Source: Halarcobacter ebronensis (GTDB lineage: Bacteria > Campylobacterota > Campylobacteria > Campylobacterales > Arcobacteraceae). Taken from it: a stretch of DNA of 64,000 bases. Both the position numbers and the translations under genes were made by a program. Every line of letters begins with the position of its first letter. Within the stretch, counting starts at the first letter, position 1. Below are positions 10,150 to 17,952 of this stretch, piece by piece. Location: the NCBI RefSeq assembly GCF_013201825.1, contig NZ_CP053836.1, forward strand, positions 2,170,001-2,234,000, in the 5' to 3' direction. The notes under the pieces are model-generated. The model saw nothing but the letters and a program-made list of their open reading frames with translations, was not told where the DNA came from and made no database searches.

Positions 10150-13082
10150 GTTTTAATCTACTCTCAAATCCCCATTTGATATAATAAGTAAAAATCCATT
10201 TTGTGTAAAGTGTGGGTTTTAATCTACTCTCAAATCCCCATTTGATATAATGTCAGTTTGAGATAATACCTAGCAAAGTAAGTTTTAATCTACTCTCAAA
10301 TCCCCATTTGATATAATAAAATAGTCTTGTTGTGCTATTTCAGTATTGTTTTAATCTACTCTCAAATCCCCATTTGATATAATCTATTGCATCAGCTATG
10401 TTTTTATAGTCTGGTTTTAATCTACTCTCAAATCCCCATTTGATATAATAATTTAAAAAGCTGGTCGAATTTTATATTGTTTTAATCTACTCTCAAATCC
10501 CCATTTGATATAATAAATGGTAATGCTTTAGTTAAAAACAGTATGTTTTAATCTACTCTCAAATCCCCATTTGATATAATGGGAGTGCCTAATTTTCAAT
10601 TGATTTGGAGGTTTTAATCTACTCTCAAATCCCCATTTGATATAATTATTAGGCTTTACTTGGATACTAGAGTTATGTTTTAATCTACTCTCAAATCCCC
10701 ATTTGATATAATCTTATCGAGGGAGGAAAGAAGGAATTAAGCGTTTTAATCTACTCTCAAATCCCCATTTGATATAATGTTACTTCATCTTTTATACTAG
10801 GGCTCGAGTTTTAATCTACTCTCAAATCCCCATTTGATATAATAGTGGTTAGCAGAGACTAAAACTTGGTATGGTTTTAATCTACTCTCAAATCCCCATT
10901 TGATATAATAGCCTATGAAATAGATAACTGTTACAAGGGGTTTTAATCTACTCTCAAATCCCCATTTGATATAATTAGAAATGAGAGAGATTAAGTTTAG
11001 AGCGGTTTTAATCTACTCTCAAATCCCCATTTGATATAATTTTTATATCGGTGGAAGTCCTGAAACTATGTTTTAATCTACTCTCAAATCCCCATTTGAT
11101 ATAATTAAAATCTCAAACATGGCAAGACATAGCCGGTTTTAATCTACTCTCAAATCCCCATTTGATATAATAAATGCAATTTCATTTTCCGGTACACCTC
11201 TGTTTTAATCTACTCTCAAATCCCCATTTGATATAATGTTTTTGCCAGGAACGGTTAAGCAATTAACGTTTTAATCTACTCTCAAATCCCCATTTGATAT
11301 AATTTCATCACAAGCCATTAATCCTATCTCATCGTTTTAATCTACTCTCAAATCCCCATTTGATATAATAGTACTTATGTAAGTTATAATGCACAATGGT
11401 TTTAATCTACTCTCAAATCCCCATTTGATATAATGAGATGGCTAAACAACTTGCAAAAGCAAGTGTTTTAATCTACTCTCAAATCCCCATTTGATATAAT
11501 ACTAGTTCTTGAGGTCCAATTAATACCATGTTTTAATCTACTCTCAAATCCCCATTTGATATAATCTTTATGATGAAGCTAAAAAAATTTCTTCTGTTTT
11601 AATCTACTCTCAAATCCCCATTTGATATAATTTCAGGACTTACAGGTGAAGTTATTGCAGTGTTTTAATCTACTCTCAAATCCCCATTTGATATAATGAG
11701 ATTTAATCGCTAATGCAAAAAAGCTATGTTTTAATCTACTCTCAAATCCCCATTTGATATAATATTAAATCTATACCCTACTTATTTGATATTGTTTTAA
11801 TCTACTCTCAAATCCCCATTTGATATAATTGCAGATTGAAAATAAAGGATAAAATACCGGTTTTAATCTACTCTCAAATCCCCATTTGATATAATATTTC
11901 GATTATTTAGGAAGCATACAACATAGTTTTAATCTACTCTCAAATCCCCATTTGATATAATATCCATAATAATCTCCTTATATAAATAATGGTTTTAATC
12001 TACTCTCAAATCCCCATTTGATATAATTTAGTGGAGTAAGTAAAGAAACATATACTGGTTTTAATCTACTCTCAAATCCCCATTTGATATAATATTATAA
12101 TGGTTGGATAGGGGTGTTGTGTGGTTTTAATCTACTCTCAAATCCCCATTTGATATAATGTTTTGCTGCTTCTTGTTCTGGGGTCAATGGTTTTAATCTA
12201 CTCTCAAATCCCCATTTGATATAATAGAATGGAAAAGCTAATAAATAAAGGAGAGGTTTTAATCTACTCTCAAATCCCCATTTGATATAATGAGTTTTAC
12301 TTCCATCTGTAAAAATTGATAGTTTTAATCTACTCTCAAATCCCCATTTGATATAATTTATGGACACGCTAAGAAGATAGCATATAAGTTTTAATCTACT
12401 CTCAAATCCCCATTTGATATAATGTGCAAGACTTACATATTTAACTAAAAACTGTTTTAATCTACTCTCAAATCCCCATTTGATATAATTTTAACTGCAG
12501 GAGTAGATACTCAACCAGGTTTTAATCTACTCTCAAATCCCCATTTGATATAATATGTTGTCTGTGCATAAAGTCCACCACCCAGTTTTAATCTACTCTC
12601 AAATCCCCATTTGATATAATTTTTCATCTGCATTAAAAGATACTATTGTTGTTTTAATCTACTCTCAAATCCCCATTTGATATAATTTTGTCTCAAACAA
12701 TTAATCAAAGAACTAAGTTTTAATCTACTCTCAAATCCCCATTTGATATAATATTATATAAAAGGAGTAATTCAATGTTACAGTTTTAATCTACTCTCAA
12801 ATCCCCATTTGATATAATATCCTCTCCAAAAAGTGAGATAGAAGCTATGTTTTAATCTACTCTCAAATCCCCATTTGATATAATTTTGCTATCATCCACT
12901 TATTACGCCTTACAGTTTTAATCTACTCTCAAATCCCCATTTGATATAATACTTATACAGAAATAGGGTATAAAATGTTGGTTTTAATCTACTCTCAAAT
13001 CCCCATTTGATATAATGCTTTTGAGAGTAGATCAACTATTGAGGCAGTTTTAATCTACTCTCAAATCCCCATTTGATATAAT
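10150..13082 (+). CRISPR. Type II-C CRISPR array, 45 repeats and 44 spacers
   Basis: The 36-bp repeat begins GTTTTAATCTACTCTC and ends CCATTTGATATAAT. I located 45 starts, the first at 10150 and the last at 13047; all copies read the same. Spacing is 66 bp (37 spacers of 30 bp) or 65 bp (7 spacers of 29 bp). The GTTTTA start gives the crRNA sense as the plus strand, opposite to the cas genes. Each repeat ends in TGATATAAT, an exact extended -10, so each spacer can be transcribed from its own promoter as in Neisseria and Campylobacter II-C systems. The anti-repeat at 14407-14440 matches both ends of the repeat. The spacer targets cannot be told without a search. The 142 bp before the first repeat is very AT-rich and holds no gene. 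Confidence 0.99.
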
Positions 13083-13097
13083 AGAGTAGCTTAAAAC
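13083..13097. repeat. Inverted partial CRISPR repeat after the last repeat
   Basis: AGAGTAGCTTAAAAC is the reverse complement of the first 15 bases of the repeat with one mismatch. It directly follows the last repeat, so a transcript could fold the last repeat's first 15 bases back onto it. The last spacer (13017-13046) also carries TTTGAGAGTAGAT, the reverse complement of repeat positions 8-20. Confidence 0.7.
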
Positions 13098-13130: not shown

Positions 13131-13481
13131 CTAAAAAACAAGCACTGCTTGTGTTTGTTTTAGTAATTTTTTTTCTGGTTTTTCTCGATAATTCTCAATT
13201 ACTAGCATATTTTTATATTGTGCTTCTGTAATTTTTACTACTCTTATAGAACCACCAACTGGTGCTGCCAGTTCTATTTTTTTCTCATATTTTTGTGCTA
13301 TAACTAAACTTCTACAAAATCTTATATAAATAGAATACTGGAACATAATAAATCCCATTTCCAAAAGTTTTTTACGAAATTTTGTATATTTTTTTATATC
13401 TTTTTTTGTATTTGTGGGCATATCAAACATTGTAAATAAAACCATTTTTCTGTACCTGCTTATTTCTTCTATATTAGTCAT
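13131..13481 (-). CDS. cas2: CRISPR-associated endoribonuclease Cas2, type II
   Basis: 116 residues, somewhat longer than many Cas2 proteins but usual for type II loci. The N-terminal strand VLFTMFDMPTNTKKD carries the conserved Asp of the ferredoxin-like fold (FDMP), followed by the helix YTKFRKKLLEMGFIMFQYSIYIR. Cas2 dimers bridge two Cas1 dimers during spacer integration. The start overlaps the cas1 stop by 4 bp, so translation is probably coupled. The C-terminus is 49 bp from the last CRISPR repeat. No csn2 or cas4 is present, which fits subtype II-C. Confidence 0.97.
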   Translation of the reverse strand: MTNIEEISRYRKMVLFTMFDMPTNTKKDIKKYTKFRKKLLEMGFIMFQYSIYIRFCRSLVIAQKYEKKIELAAPVGGSIRVVKITEAQYKNMLVIENYREKPEKKLLKQTQAVLVF

Positions 13482-14350
13482 AATTCAAAAAGAGTTAACT
13501 CTTCACATTTTAATAAACAAATTGACTGATAATTTGCTACAATAGCTTTCATACAATTAGAAACTGTTACATTTTTACTATCATAAATAACTGTTTTATC
13601 CAAAAGCTTCAATAAATCAATTTTGATTTTACTATTTAATTCCATCTCTTTTTTTATATTTCTTACCACATAATCATCTACAATAGGGCGAAAAGGCTCT
13701 ATCAAATCATCTGCAAGATTAAAAGCATTAAGCTCACTGCTGTGATGTATACCAAAAGCTGGATTTAAACCATAAGCTACAAGATACCTACAAATGGAAC
13801 TTCTAAAAATGGCATAACCAAAATTTAAAATGGCATTATTTATATTTTCAGGATCATTTCTTGAAAACTCTTTTCCAAAGAGTTCTTTAAAATAGTATGC
13901 AGCAGCTGTAGCTTCTATATTTTCTTTATCATTTGATGTTATTCGAGAAATTAAAGAATCCAAATAATCACTGTTTTTATGAAGTTTTTTCAAAACTTTA
14001 GATTGATTATTCACTTTATGTATAATTATATTTTTCCAAATCTGATTTAACTTTGGTTTAGATACCTCTATTTGAGCTTTTTGTATTTTGGTTGTACGAC
14101 TGTTTTTATTGATACCTTGTAGAATAGAACTTGGCATAAACTTCTCATCACAAAAGATTACATTGATATCAGCTTTAGAAAGTTGGGACAGAAGAGCAGA
14201 GGTTATAGTGCTTTGTTGATTTTCTATGATTATGGTATCAATATCATCAAAGCAAACAGTCGTTTCATAGTCATCAATTTTTACGGATATAAGATTGTGT
14301 TTGTAACTTAGATATGATTTGTTTTTGATATATAATTTTTGAAGAGACAT
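13478..14350 (-). CDS. cas1: CRISPR-associated endonuclease Cas1, type II
   Basis: 290 residues, normal length. The N-terminal beta domain is about 1-75 and the catalytic helical domain follows. The metal ligands of the family fit the Glu in IEATAAAYYFKELFG, the His in GIHHSSELNAFNLADDL and the Asp in NLADDLIEPFRP. It is the integrase that inserts new spacers, together with Cas2. The ATG at 14350 is preceded by AAAGG at the right distance, but that ribosome-binding site lies inside a 14-bp hairpin whose last base is the A of the ATG. Expression of cas1 and cas2 may therefore be damped or tied to tracrRNA transcription. Confidence 0.97.
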   Translation of the reverse strand: MSLQKLYIKNKSYLSYKHNLISVKIDDYETTVCFDDIDTIIIENQQSTITSALLSQLSKADINVIFCDEKFMPSSILQGINKNSRTTKIQKAQIEVSKPKLNQIWKNIIIHKVNNQSKVLKKLHKNSDYLDSLISRITSNDKENIEATAAAYYFKELFGKEFSRNDPENINNAILNFGYAIFRSSICRYLVAYGLNPAFGIHHSSELNAFNLADDLIEPFRPIVDDYVVRNIKKEMELNSKIKIDLLKLLDKTVIYDSKNVTVSNCMKAIVANYQSICLLKCEELTLFEL

Positions 14351-14381
14351 TTTATAAACCTTTAAAAAAAGGTTTATAAAA
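14350..14381 (-). terminator. Hairpin at the tracrRNA 3' end that covers the cas1 ribosome-binding site
   Basis: Read on the minus strand, TTTTATAAACCTTT and AAAGGTTTATAAAA form a perfect 14-bp stem with a TTTT loop. The 3' arm holds AAAGG (the cas1 ribosome-binding site) and ends on the A of the cas1 ATG. There is no U-run after the stem, so it may be a weak terminator, a translational block, or both. Confidence 0.6.
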
Positions 14382-14440
14382 TTTTTGCGGGACTAAATCG
14401 TCCCTTGTTTTAATCAGACTATCAAATCCCCATTTGATAT
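14382..14440 (-). ncRNA. tracrRNA of the type II-C system
   Basis: The anti-repeat at 14407-14440 is complementary to the CRISPR repeat over 9 bp at the crRNA 5' side and 18 bp at the 3' side, split by an unpaired bulge of 6-7 nt, as in crRNA:tracrRNA duplexes. Downstream on the minus strand is GGGAC-GATTTA-GTCCC, a nexus-like hairpin, then an A/T tract and the hairpin at 14350-14381. The promoter must lie in the last codons of cas9 or just after; TATTAT at the cas9 stop is a possible -10. Orientation is the same as cas9 and cas1. The exact ends are not known; the 3' hairpin may belong to the RNA. Confidence 0.85.
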
Positions 14441-14457
14441 GGAAAAATTTTATAATA

Positions 14458-17400
14458 TTATTTCTTAAACTCTTCATAGGAAATATCTCCTTGATAATTT
14501 ATAAACACTTTTTTTGCAATTGTATCTTTATTTAAAGTTATTTGAAATTCATTTTTTGTATTAATTGATTTTAAAACCAATTTATTATTACCAGCTGATA
14601 TTTTTCCACCTCCATTAAATACATAATATTTTTTTGTATTATCTTTAAGGTTTTCTATTTCTAACAAATCTCCTTTAGAAATAGTGATTTTATCTTCATA
14701 ATTTTTTATTAAAGAAATCTTTGTTTCATATATTTTAGGTTCTATATTATTTTTAATAGATGAAAAATAGTTCAATCCTATTACTTGACCTTTTACAGTA
14801 TTATATAGATCCACGTTTAAAGTTGTATCATTGAGTTTTGCTACAAAAGGAGTTTGAGTTGATTTTAACTCATCATAAATATCTTTTGTAAGCCTTTTAA
14901 CTCTGGAAGTTTGAGTTTTATCTGTAATAATTATACTGTCAACTTTTGAAGCCTCTTTTGTTTTGATTTTAATATTTCTAATGATTTGTTTTTGTCCTTT
15001 GTTCGTTAGGAAAAAACAAGGTTGATTTTGTATATCTATTTGAATTTGTTTTTCATCGGTTAAAAGTTTCATTTTTTCTTTAATATCAATAGTTTCAGGA
15101 GTTTCAATATAATCTTTTTTATTGGGTAAATTGCCTTTTAACTCTTTTATTTGTTCTTCTAAATCTTTGATTTTTGTTCTAGTTTGAAGCAATATCTCTT
15201 TATAGTTTTCTATTGCATTTTTTATATTATTTTGTTTTGGTAAATCTAAAGATTTTATTAAATCTTCTACTCTTTTTTTCACTTCACTATCATTTACATC
15301 TTTTCCATTTTGGTCAAAAAGTAGATTTTTATCTATATTTTTTTTATCAATTTGGCAAAATATTTCTTTCTCTTCATCCCAATAAAGCTTAATATTCCCA
15401 TCTTTAAATCCCACGATATTATCTCTTTTTTTCATTATAGGGCAAATGTATAACTCATCATTTTCATATTTTGTAACTTTTTCTTTTACAAAATCAACCA
15501 AAGAGATACCCTCTTTAGTTTTAGGAAATCTTGCACTTAGATTTTCTAAAATAGCTTTTGTTTTAAAGCCGTTTTCATTTTGTTTAAAAAAGTCATTTAA
15601 TGCTTTTTTTGCTGAAGAGTTTAAAAGTGAAATAACAATAGCATCTATAGTATGATGATAGTTTGTAGTTCTGTCTTTTTTATCATTTTCATTTTTAGGT
15701 TGAACTTTATTTATTCCCCAAAGTCGTTTGAGTTCACTTATGGCTTTCCCTGTTACTCTTATTAATTTATCGTTTGTTTCACCTTTTCCATGCTCATTTT
15801 GCTTTGGATAGAGATAATGCTCTAAATAGTTTGCTATGATTTTTGTAGCACTTCTTGTGTCATTTAAAAATCTATCTTCAAGCTTCTCATTGTTCCAAAT
15901 ATTGTTTATATTATCTTCATTTGTTAACCAATTGATTTTACTCTTATTTAATAAATTTTCATTTACTCTATGCTGAAAATCTTCCCAAGCATTTTTTGAT
16001 TTTAGATAAGTTATTGGGTGTGTATCACTTTTATTTTGATTGTATTTTTTAAAAACCAAGATTTTATTTTTATATGAATTTATCCAAATCTTGCTTCGTG
16101 GAATAAAATGTTCAACTTCACTTACGGTTTCATCTAAAGCCTCTTCCAAAGTCATTGGATCTCCACTATAAAGACATCTTGCTTTTTGTTCAGTAAATAG
16201 TCTTGCTCGTTCAATATTTTTATTTGTAACTTCATATTTATTGGCTTCTAGTAATTTTTCAGCCTCTTTTATCTCTTTTCTACTATTTGCTTGAGATTCT
16301 TTTATATTATCTTCTTCTGTTTTTGAGTTTAATTCCCTTGCTGTTTCTATAATAATTTGGTCAATTTTTCCATATTTTTTTATCAAATCATTTATAAGTC
16401 TTCTAAGAATTGAGATAACTCTTTTTACATTTGGAGAAACTAGAGGTTGATAAAACAGATGTTCTACTTTAAAATTTTTTATATTTTTTTCAAGCCATTT
16501 TATATCATCTTTTGAGGGATTTAATGGAGGAAGATAATCATAAGGTGTTATATCCAAATATTTTCTAAAATATCCAAGTTGGGTTAAACTGTCTTGATAG
16601 GTTTTCCCATCTCTTAATTTTTGTAAAATTTCATCTATAAAAAGAAGTGAAAATGATGAATAAGCTTCTTTAGTCCCTTTATCAACTTTTGATAATCTGT
16701 CAATGGTTTCATCACTTAAAATATTTTGAATATCAACTTTTTTTATCTCTTTTACTATTTGGTCTTTATTTACAAAATAATGGATTTTTTCTAAAATTTT
16801 TGTATATAAATCTCTGTGTTTTTCAAAGATATCTATGTTTGCAGTTTTAAATATTTCTAAAAGTTGAGTATGCAGTTTTATATCTAAGATAGTGTCATCT
16901 TGTTTATCTGTTGTTTTTATTTTTATATTTTTAAGTCCTGCTTTATCAAATACATTTTTTGTATTAATTGTTTGTGTCGGTGGTTTTTTTAGCCAAAGTT
17001 CTATTGTATTTTCTATCTCTTCTTTTGACGGTGTAAATATTTCTCCTGTTTTATCATTAAAAATCAGTTCTTTTGAGTTTTCAATTCTTTGTCTAAGTGT
17101 AAATTCTATACTTGAAATATGTGATTTAGCAACTCTTTTTTGTGGATTTTGATGATAAATATTATAAAAACTACAATATCCCACCATATCTTCCATGCTT
17201 TTTAAAGGTCTTTGTTCAAATTGTCCTAAAGAGTTTTCATTTACTCCATATAAAAGCTTGTTTTTAAAAGTTTCATATTTTTCACTGTTTTCAAAAAGCT
17301 CAATATTGTTTTTTTGGCTATGTAATAACTTTTCTAACTCTTCTTCCCAAAATTCTCTACCTATTGAGTTGGTATAATCATCTTTTTTATTTCTAATTGC

Positions 17401-17952
17401 TACATTTATAAATCCATCTTTTTCAAGTTCTGTTTTTTTGTTTAGTAAAACTAAAGATGGTATAGTTAATTTGTTTTCTAAATAAATTGTTTTATTTTTT
17501 TTAATTGGTTCTGTTATAGCACCATCATCTTTTGATTCTTCTGTTTTAAATTGATTTGAATAACCTCTTCTTGAAATAATTGTATAAAGAGCAAAGGTAA
17601 ACTCATCTTTTGAAAGACTTTTGCCATTTACTGCTACTTCTCTTAATATATATGGATTTTGTTTTTGTGATAGTTTATTGAAGTATTTTATTGGTTGAGA
17701 AACAATTAATTTATCAGCAAAATTAAAATCACAAAGAAGTTTTCTAACTATTTGTTTTCTTCTACTATTTCTTTCATTTCTTCTTCGACCACTTCTGAAT
17801 TTTCTTCTATCTTCTGCTTTAATATATTCACTAAAAATAATACTATTTGAAGTTAACTCATTAAAAACTGTTTGTTCATTTTTTATTTCTATTTCATTTA
17901 AGGAAAAACCTATACTATTTGTACCAATATCTAAACCTAAAACTTTTTTCAT
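14458..17952 (-). CDS. cas9: Cas9 RNA-guided DNA endonuclease, subtype II-C
   Basis: 1164 residues, within the compact II-C range. RuvC-I: VLGLDIGTNSIGFS with D8. Arg-rich bridge helix: RRKFRSGRRRNERNSRRKQI near 55-75. RuvC-II: IIIETARELNS with E536. HNH: EVEHFIPRSKIWINSYKNK with H615, then YNQNKSD. RuvC-III: YHHTIDAIVIS with H767 and D770. PAM-interacting region is the last 250-300 residues. It cuts DNA matching the crRNA spacer with both nuclease domains. The residue before the HNH histidine is Glu614 where most Cas9 proteins have Asp, a conservative change of a metal ligand. The start is fixed by MKKVLGLDIG. Gene order cas9-tracrRNA-cas1-cas2-array gives II-C. The PAM cannot be deduced from sequence alone. 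Confidence 0.98.
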   Translation of the reverse strand: MKKVLGLDIGTNSIGFSLNEIEIKNEQTVFNELTSNSIIFSEYIKAEDRRKFRSGRRRNERNSRRKQIVRKLLCDFNFADKLIVSQPIKYFNKLSQKQNPYILREVAVNGKSLSKDEFTFALYTIISRRGYSNQFKTEESKDDGAITEPIKKNKTIYLENKLTIPSLVLLNKKTELEKDGFINVAIRNKKDDYTNSIGREFWEEELEKLLHSQKNNIELFENSEKYETFKNKLLYGVNENSLGQFEQRPLKSMEDMVGYCSFYNIYHQNPQKRVAKSHISSIEFTLRQRIENSKELIFNDKTGEIFTPSKEEIENTIELWLKKPPTQTINTKNVFDKAGLKNIKIKTTDKQDDTILDIKLHTQLLEIFKTANIDIFEKHRDLYTKILEKIHYFVNKDQIVKEIKKVDIQNILSDETIDRLSKVDKGTKEAYSSFSLLFIDEILQKLRDGKTYQDSLTQLGYFRKYLDITPYDYLPPLNPSKDDIKWLEKNIKNFKVEHLFYQPLVSPNVKRVISILRRLINDLIKKYGKIDQIIIETARELNSKTEEDNIKESQANSRKEIKEAEKLLEANKYEVTNKNIERARLFTEQKARCLYSGDPMTLEEALDETVSEVEHFIPRSKIWINSYKNKILVFKKYNQNKSDTHPITYLKSKNAWEDFQHRVNENLLNKSKINWLTNEDNINNIWNNEKLEDRFLNDTRSATKIIANYLEHYLYPKQNEHGKGETNDKLIRVTGKAISELKRLWGINKVQPKNENDKKDRTTNYHHTIDAIVISLLNSSAKKALNDFFKQNENGFKTKAILENLSARFPKTKEGISLVDFVKEKVTKYENDELYICPIMKKRDNIVGFKDGNIKLYWDEEKEIFCQIDKKNIDKNLLFDQNGKDVNDSEVKKRVEDLIKSLDLPKQNNIKNAIENYKEILLQTRTKIKDLEEQIKELKGNLPNKKDYIETPETIDIKEKMKLLTDEKQIQIDIQNQPCFFLTNKGQKQIIRNIKIKTKEASKVDSIIITDKTQTSRVKRLTKDIYDELKSTQTPFVAKLNDTTLNVDLYNTVKGQVIGLNYFSSIKNNIEPKIYETKISLIKNYEDKITISKGDLLEIENLKDNTKKYYVFNGGGKISAGNNKLVLKSINTKNEFQITLNKDTIAKKVFINYQGDISYEEFKK

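Follow-up and report, generated by a model that had tools for sequence, protein, structure and literature searches.

A predicted tracrRNA whose last helix holds the cas1 Shine–Dalgarno sequence in type II-C CRISPR loci of Halarcobacter ebronensis and its relatives

What occupies the space between cas9 and cas1 in the CRISPR locus of Halarcobacter ebronensis, and what might it mean for the start of cas1? The locus lies in a stretch of 64,000 nucleotides (contig NZ_CP053836.1, positions 2,170,001 to 2,234,000 of the forward strand), here called the window, and is a type II-C system with cas9, cas1 and cas2 and with neither csn2 nor cas4 alongside (Table 1). Its neighbours are a chemotaxis receptor, a diguanylate cyclase and pyrF, and a PADLOC check of the two nearest flanking genes returned no Cas call. 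On the minus strand, 107 nt separate cas9 from cas1, and this spacing is filled by the parts of a putative tracrRNA.

Table 1. Features of the type II-C locus (window coordinates, strand in brackets)
Feature	Position	Description	Evidence
cas9	14458..17952 (-); stop codon region 14460-14458	1164 aa, type II	NCBIfam TIGR01865, E 3.5e-115; PADLOC Cas9
cas1	13478..14350 (-)	290 aa, type II cas1	NCBIfam TIGR03639, E 2.8e-88
cas2	13131..13481 (-)	116 aa, overlaps the end of cas1	NCBIfam TIGR01573, E 2e-17
CRISPR array	10150..13082 (+)	45 repeats GTTTTAATCTACTCTCAAATCCCCATTTGATATAAT, in the inferred crRNA orientation; repeat end TATAAT	
-10-like box TAAAAT	14447..14452 (-)	predicted tracrRNA promoter, between cas9 stop and anti-repeat	
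tracrRNA anti-repeat	14407..14440 (-)	pairs with the crRNA repeat of the array (45 repeats)	
Nexus stem-loop GGGAC-GATTTA-GTCCC	14389..14404 (-)	kept in the six class-A rows	
Perfect 15-bp hairpin, loop TTTT	14349..14382 (-)	3' arm (14363-14349) comprises the cas1 SD and the A and T of its ATG	
AAAGG, cas1 Shine–Dalgarno sequence (SD)	14359..14363 (-)	in the hairpin 3' arm, 8 nt before the ATG (A 14350, T 14349)	

Anatomy of the cas9–cas1 gap

A first-pass annotation, made from the letters of the window, had placed a tracrRNA between cas9 and cas1, and both the proposal and its coordinates hold. Judged by its anatomy the gap is a sense-strand tracrRNA: the anti-repeat pairs with the crRNA repeat and is followed by a nexus and a 3' structure that are conserved, with compensatory changes, among the relatives described below. 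The anti-repeat core CAAATGGGGATTTGA has 45 copies in the array and one in the gap, and a search of the 3.17-Mb genome allowing up to one mismatch in 16 gave no further copy. A TA-N-N-A-T hexamer lies at a fixed distance from the anti-repeat in 11 of the 14 loci that share this layout, the other three having TATAAT 9 nt further up; in 400 kb of the window's genome 1.1% of positions match TANNAT, and the 14 members are related, so that their count is not one of independent cases. No Rfam family matched the locus (4227 families, gathering thresholds), no viral contig held an exact match to the 19-base anti-repeat pattern, and the PDB contained only distant Cas9s (best E 2.5e-39).

Downstream of the nexus a perfect hairpin had been described as having 14 bp and ending on the A of the cas1 ATG; it is indeed perfect, but comprises 15 bp and ends on the T. 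The proposed ribosome-binding site of cas1, AAAGG, was found within the 3' arm of this hairpin. The fold of positions 14450-14330 has a predicted energy of -30.6 kcal/mol (z = -4.37), equalled in none of 200 shuffles, and the 15-bp hairpin alone contributes a fold of -13.5 kcal/mol. For comparison with other genes we applied a simple ORF rule to the window and to 20 stretches of its genome, each of 20 kb, which gave 377 starts; the rule is imperfect and called the cas2 start at 13445 as against 13481 (36 nt off). Among these, the hairpin over the cas1 SD region is the longest perfect one, the runners-up having 11 and 9 bp, and 357 of the 377 have no perfect hairpin of at least 5 bp covering at least 5 nt of the region -14 to -5. 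The predicted accessibility of the cas1 SD (0.11) is the 11th lowest (median 0.48), 24% of the sampled starts lying at 0.35 or below; the cas9 start of the window has an accessibility of 0.46 and no SD hairpin. In leaders that sequester the SD, such as RNA thermometers and the expression platforms of riboswitches, the SD is paired in a helix. The cas1 SD is likewise paired in the predicted fold, but here the helix belongs to a predicted guide RNA.

Conservation in relatives and the layout of outgroups

Cas1 was searched for in overlapping sets of genomes: 104 from the family, 175 and 44 from two other families, 398 from the order and 397 from the class, the last two sets being samples of larger groups. 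Thirteen relatives, with Cas1 55–91% identical to that of the window, have its layout, giving 14 members with the window included; three named relatives (Arcobacter and Aliarcobacter records, Cas1 identity 73–91%) are not counted on top of genomes G059, G101 and G029, and the class-level search returned eight matches, none additional to the known members. All 14 carry the tracrRNA in sense orientation in the cas9–cas1 gap, which measures 104–133 nt. An SD-like tetramer begins at -11 to -13 before cas1 in every member, and the cas1 SD falls within the last predicted tracrRNA helix throughout, this helix being a hairpin in six members including the window (class A) and a pseudoknot in eight (class B). 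A different start site for cas1 was considered and dropped, as alignment to the window Cas1 begins at residue 1 in 14 of 14 (13 ATG, one GTG).

One class-A member, G012, carries a cas1 whose frame stops at 247 aa and which matches in two pieces (residues 1–221 and 220–290). Its cas9 is without an internal stop, its hairpin looks intact, and only three exact repeat copies were found beside cas1. The fold has thus been kept, at least for a while, without an intact cas1, and this is consistent with a main role of the hairpin in the tracrRNA.

On plasmids, no Cas1 was found at 1e-60; a threshold of 1e-5 gave 35 records, of which four were inspected and one, from Nicoliella (L107), was analysed. 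There, too, the tracrRNA lies in the cas9–cas1 gap, but the arrangement differs from that of the window in that the anti-repeat appears to run against the direction of cas1 (if the array strand beginning with GTTT is the crRNA strand) and the SD, GGGGGA, is free.

As outgroups we used 20 of 69 genomes with a more distant Cas1 (35–42% identical), selected by the length of their contigs. In all 20, cas1 overlaps cas9 or starts at most 21 nt after it (gap -38 to +21 nt, with starts chosen by script); a tracrRNA would not fit into such a gap, and the spacing would be suited to translational coupling of the two genes. Anti-repeats were found in 19 of the 20, either upstream of cas9 or between cas2 and the array, about half of them by eye; the array mask hid array-adjacent anti-repeats in about half of the outgroups, and G310 has no array. 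Gap length is therefore the stronger outgroup test, since the anti-repeats were partly masked and in part read by eye. Over the same stretch from -91 to +60, the median predicted accessibility of the cas1 SD is 0.14 in the clade as against 0.56 for the 20 outgroup starts (Mann–Whitney P 6e-5, a guide only because the rows are related). Closed starts do exist among the outgroups, one of them (G069) at 0.05 without this layout and three more at 0.15–0.23, and four class-B rows are given as 0.28–0.35 open by nested folding, which cannot represent a pseudoknot.

Two architectures of the terminal fold

In class A, an A/T-rich hairpin comes after the nexus GGGAC/GTCCC and has the SD in its 3' arm; the nexus of G012 reads GGGGC/GCCCC, an A-U to G-C double change. 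In class B the nexus loop is long and a small hairpin lies in the middle; the 3' strand (TCGGGA, TCGGAGT or TCGGGGC) pairs with the nexus loop to form the pseudoknot and holds the cas1 SD. This loop pairing was found in all eight rows, one of which (G345) was given a nexus stem of 3 bp by the script. Over the three class-B helices (nexus stem, middle hairpin and nexus loop with SD strand), 99.1% of alignment cells are paired, and double changes occur at five of 14 pairs, including two of the six pseudoknot pairs (G059 and G345). None of 500 shuffles scored as high, and sliding the partners by 1–3 columns left 22–64% of cells paired. For class A the values are 97.5% of cells and three of 20 pairs, reached by five of 500 shuffles, and carry less weight because the six rows are closely related. 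The three unpaired cells and one gap of class A all belong to G083, whose left arm is misplaced by MAFFT and which folds on its own into a 13-bp hairpin.

At least two switches between the classes fall on the Cas9 tree, so that the mode of pairing has been altered and the pairedness of the SD has not. The window and its sister G059 have Cas9 proteins that are 84% identical and yet differ in class, a simple hairpin as against a pseudoknot, which suggests replacement of the module or a wide tolerance by this Cas9.

The eight class-B members resemble the tracrRNA of Campylobacter-like type II-C systems and the CjCas9 guide in having a nexus stem, a middle hairpin and pairing of the loop with the 3' strand. 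In the window tracrRNA, as in class A generally, a search for this type of nexus-loop pseudoknot found A/T matches of at most 4 nt. Six outgroup tracrRNAs, which we take to be Campylobacter-like from their repeat letters, share the nexus-loop pseudoknot. The script found it in four; in G286, for which it returned nothing, and G426, for which it gave a tie of four, the pairs TCGGT/ACCGA and TGGT/ACCA were read by eye. Their RNAs, however, differ in position, being encoded on the other strand, between cas2 and the array, and in polarity: the loop is G-rich and the 3' strand (AACCG, AACCA, CCGTGC, ACCGAA, ACCA or ACCGA) is C-rich and without an SD. The reversed polarity is seen only in loci with cas1 downstream, and we take this as the strongest indication of a double role for these bases, in the tracrRNA and in cas1. 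With the SD inside the last helix of every member, it points to a single helix that would serve both tracrRNA folding and cas1 initiation.

By eye, three Campylobacter-like loci (L068, L069 and L073) have their tracrRNA between cas2 and the array, antisense towards the cas2 end, with the 3' pseudoknot strand adjoining the apparent cas2 stop codon.

Such a double assignment could have arisen by packing, the 3' strand of the tracrRNA having been reused as an SD for lack of space, with a helix that opens enough and no regulatory gain. The uniformly short gaps fit this explanation, as does the hairpin kept beside the broken cas1 of G012, and tracrRNA function alone would account for the class-B fold, given that the Campylobacter-like pseudoknots occur without a following gene start. 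Pairing of the SD in 14 of 14 members through two different architectures speaks against it. So does the stability of the class-A hairpins, which fold at -12.7 to -14.3 kcal/mol; as a rule, SD hairpins of this stability should cut initiation strongly. We regard packing alone as a real but lesser possibility. On balance it seems to us probable that the tracrRNA fold must open for cas1 to be translated and that it keeps this translation low, as judged from folding predictions that take no account of transcription speed, ribosomes or Cas9.

Termination, read-through and possible control of cas1

The hairpin had further been held to end the tracrRNA, a claim that stands weakly for the window; six of the eight class-B members have a better U-tract. 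In the window the stem contains two G-C pairs and is followed by GTCTCTTC, with four interrupted T in eight bases and no good U-tract. A terminator scan that required 3 or more GC pairs and 5 T in 8 bases gave no minus-strand site at this hairpin; it did find a canonical one at 18099-18055 and lists the nexus stem on the plus strand. A terminator for the opposite strand was also considered, because TTTTTGC follows the stem in that direction; it was rejected, as there are only two G-C pairs and the scan does not list it.

If the helix were mainly a terminator of the tracrRNA, its overlap with the SD would be a by-product and cas1 would be controlled by read-through and not by occlusion. This would agree with the T-rich tails of six class-B rows, which have 5–6 T in the next eight bases, three of them with six T in a row. 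In class A, the window included, the tail consists of cas1 codons 1–4, with 4–5 interrupted T in eight (three of the six rows have 5). T-rich tails are in any case modest evidence, since 13.8% of all 8-mers in the genome sample have at least 5 T. With the scan result for the window, these observations make termination as the main role of the helix improbable.

The layout, the helix, its conservation and compensatory changes, the placement of the SD and the loss of close cas9–cas1 linkage can all be read from the sequences themselves. We favour, with moderate confidence, the following model as a whole. The 107-nt gap would be a sense tracrRNA gene with a putative promoter of its own at the cas9 end, and its terminal fold would have a dual use, completing the tracrRNA and holding the cas1 SD. 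Transcripts that end or are cleaved at this fold would become tracrRNA. Those that extend beyond it, whether begun at the tracrRNA promoter or coming from cas9, would be cas1–cas2 mRNA with a folded tracrRNA as their 5' leader. Ribosomes would reach the cas1 SD only once the helix opens, so that cas1–cas2, and with them spacer acquisition, would be translated less than from an open leader and uncoupled from the translation of cas9; selection may have favoured this lowered translation. Occlusion of this kind would offer a reason for the loss of the close cas9–cas1 linkage seen in 20 of 20 outgroups, and a structural element of a guide RNA would physically contain the start site of the adaptation genes.

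We further infer that cas1 may be regulated, for example by Cas9 acting on the leader. Cas9, with or without crRNA, might bind the read-through leader, lock the helix and repress cas1–cas2, so that adaptation would fall when guide complexes are plentiful. We hold such locking to be unlikely, although several lines speak for it. The SD strand of class B is the pseudoknot strand, and the C. jejuni guide is reported to form a triple helix between its stem loops (PMC7737000, in the text available from it). Guide RNAs in the 5' leader allow Cas proteins to repress translation in the CARTRIDGE switches (PMC10115826, available text); those are engineered and mammalian, and the window leader is natural, bacterial and known here from its sequence. 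In type II-A systems, Cas9 with a long tracrRNA (tracr-L) is likewise a brake on cas genes and adaptation, by another route (PMC11417352, in the sections available): tracr-L guides Cas9 to promoter DNA and acts on transcription, whereas the RNA of the window is part of the mRNA itself, in cis, and its target would be translation or termination. Against locking, a leader paired with crRNA might also be cleaved by RNase III. A natural Cas9-responsive mRNA leader, in which the tracrRNA is the 5' leader of cas1–cas2 and bound Cas9 (with or without crRNA) hides the SD, is accordingly a tentative proposal that we would not expect to hold. If it did, immune capacity would feed back on the formation of memory at the level of single RNA molecules, each read-through RNA being either guide or cas1 mRNA and not both at once. 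The type II-A brake on acquisition acts on promoter DNA, and in the accessible parts of the literature cited here we found no minimal II-C counterpart.

A tracrRNA in the cas9–cas1 gap is already known from type II-A systems, in Bifidobacterium merycicum, Lactobacillus brevis, L. rhamnosus and Enterococcus faecalis (PMC4521832, PMC9204096, PMC10541446, PMC4894674, each in the part available). The placement is that of the window, but the window clade is II-C. The gap tracrRNAs of L. brevis are on the plus or the minus strand (PMC9204096, available part), so sense-oriented type II-A cases may exist. For a tracrRNA over the cas1 SD we found no prior report: no overlap of this kind was found in the available portions of PMC3656092, PMC3936727 and PMC5006608, nor was a tracrRNA covering the cas1 SD reported among the literature matches listed, as far as their accessible text goes, a scope outside which subscription papers mostly fall. 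Predicted structured RNAs in CRISPR operons are the subject of PMC9067536, which in its accessible text has one tracrRNA model, mostly from Bacteroidetes and near the start of cas9; the words Arcobacter and Campylobacter are absent from its main text.

Some smaller observations concern the array. An extra repeat of II-C arrays is dealt with in the available part of PMC12080349. A minus-strand ORF of 90 aa at window positions 12095-12367 consists of translated repeats and spacers (YIKWGFESRLKP repeated) and is no gene. The leader-end spacer (window 13017-13046) holds TTTGAGAGTAGAT, 13 bases that by eye are the antisense of the CRISPR repeat, and this spacer looks partly repeat-derived. Directly after the last, leader-end repeat, AGAGTAGCTTAAAAC (window 13083-13097) is complementary to bases 1–15 of the repeat with one mismatch, so that the last repeat would be able to fold back on its flank. 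By eye, similar letters follow the last repeat in G083, G101 and G012 and partly in G027, G059 and G072, and in other relatives they do not.
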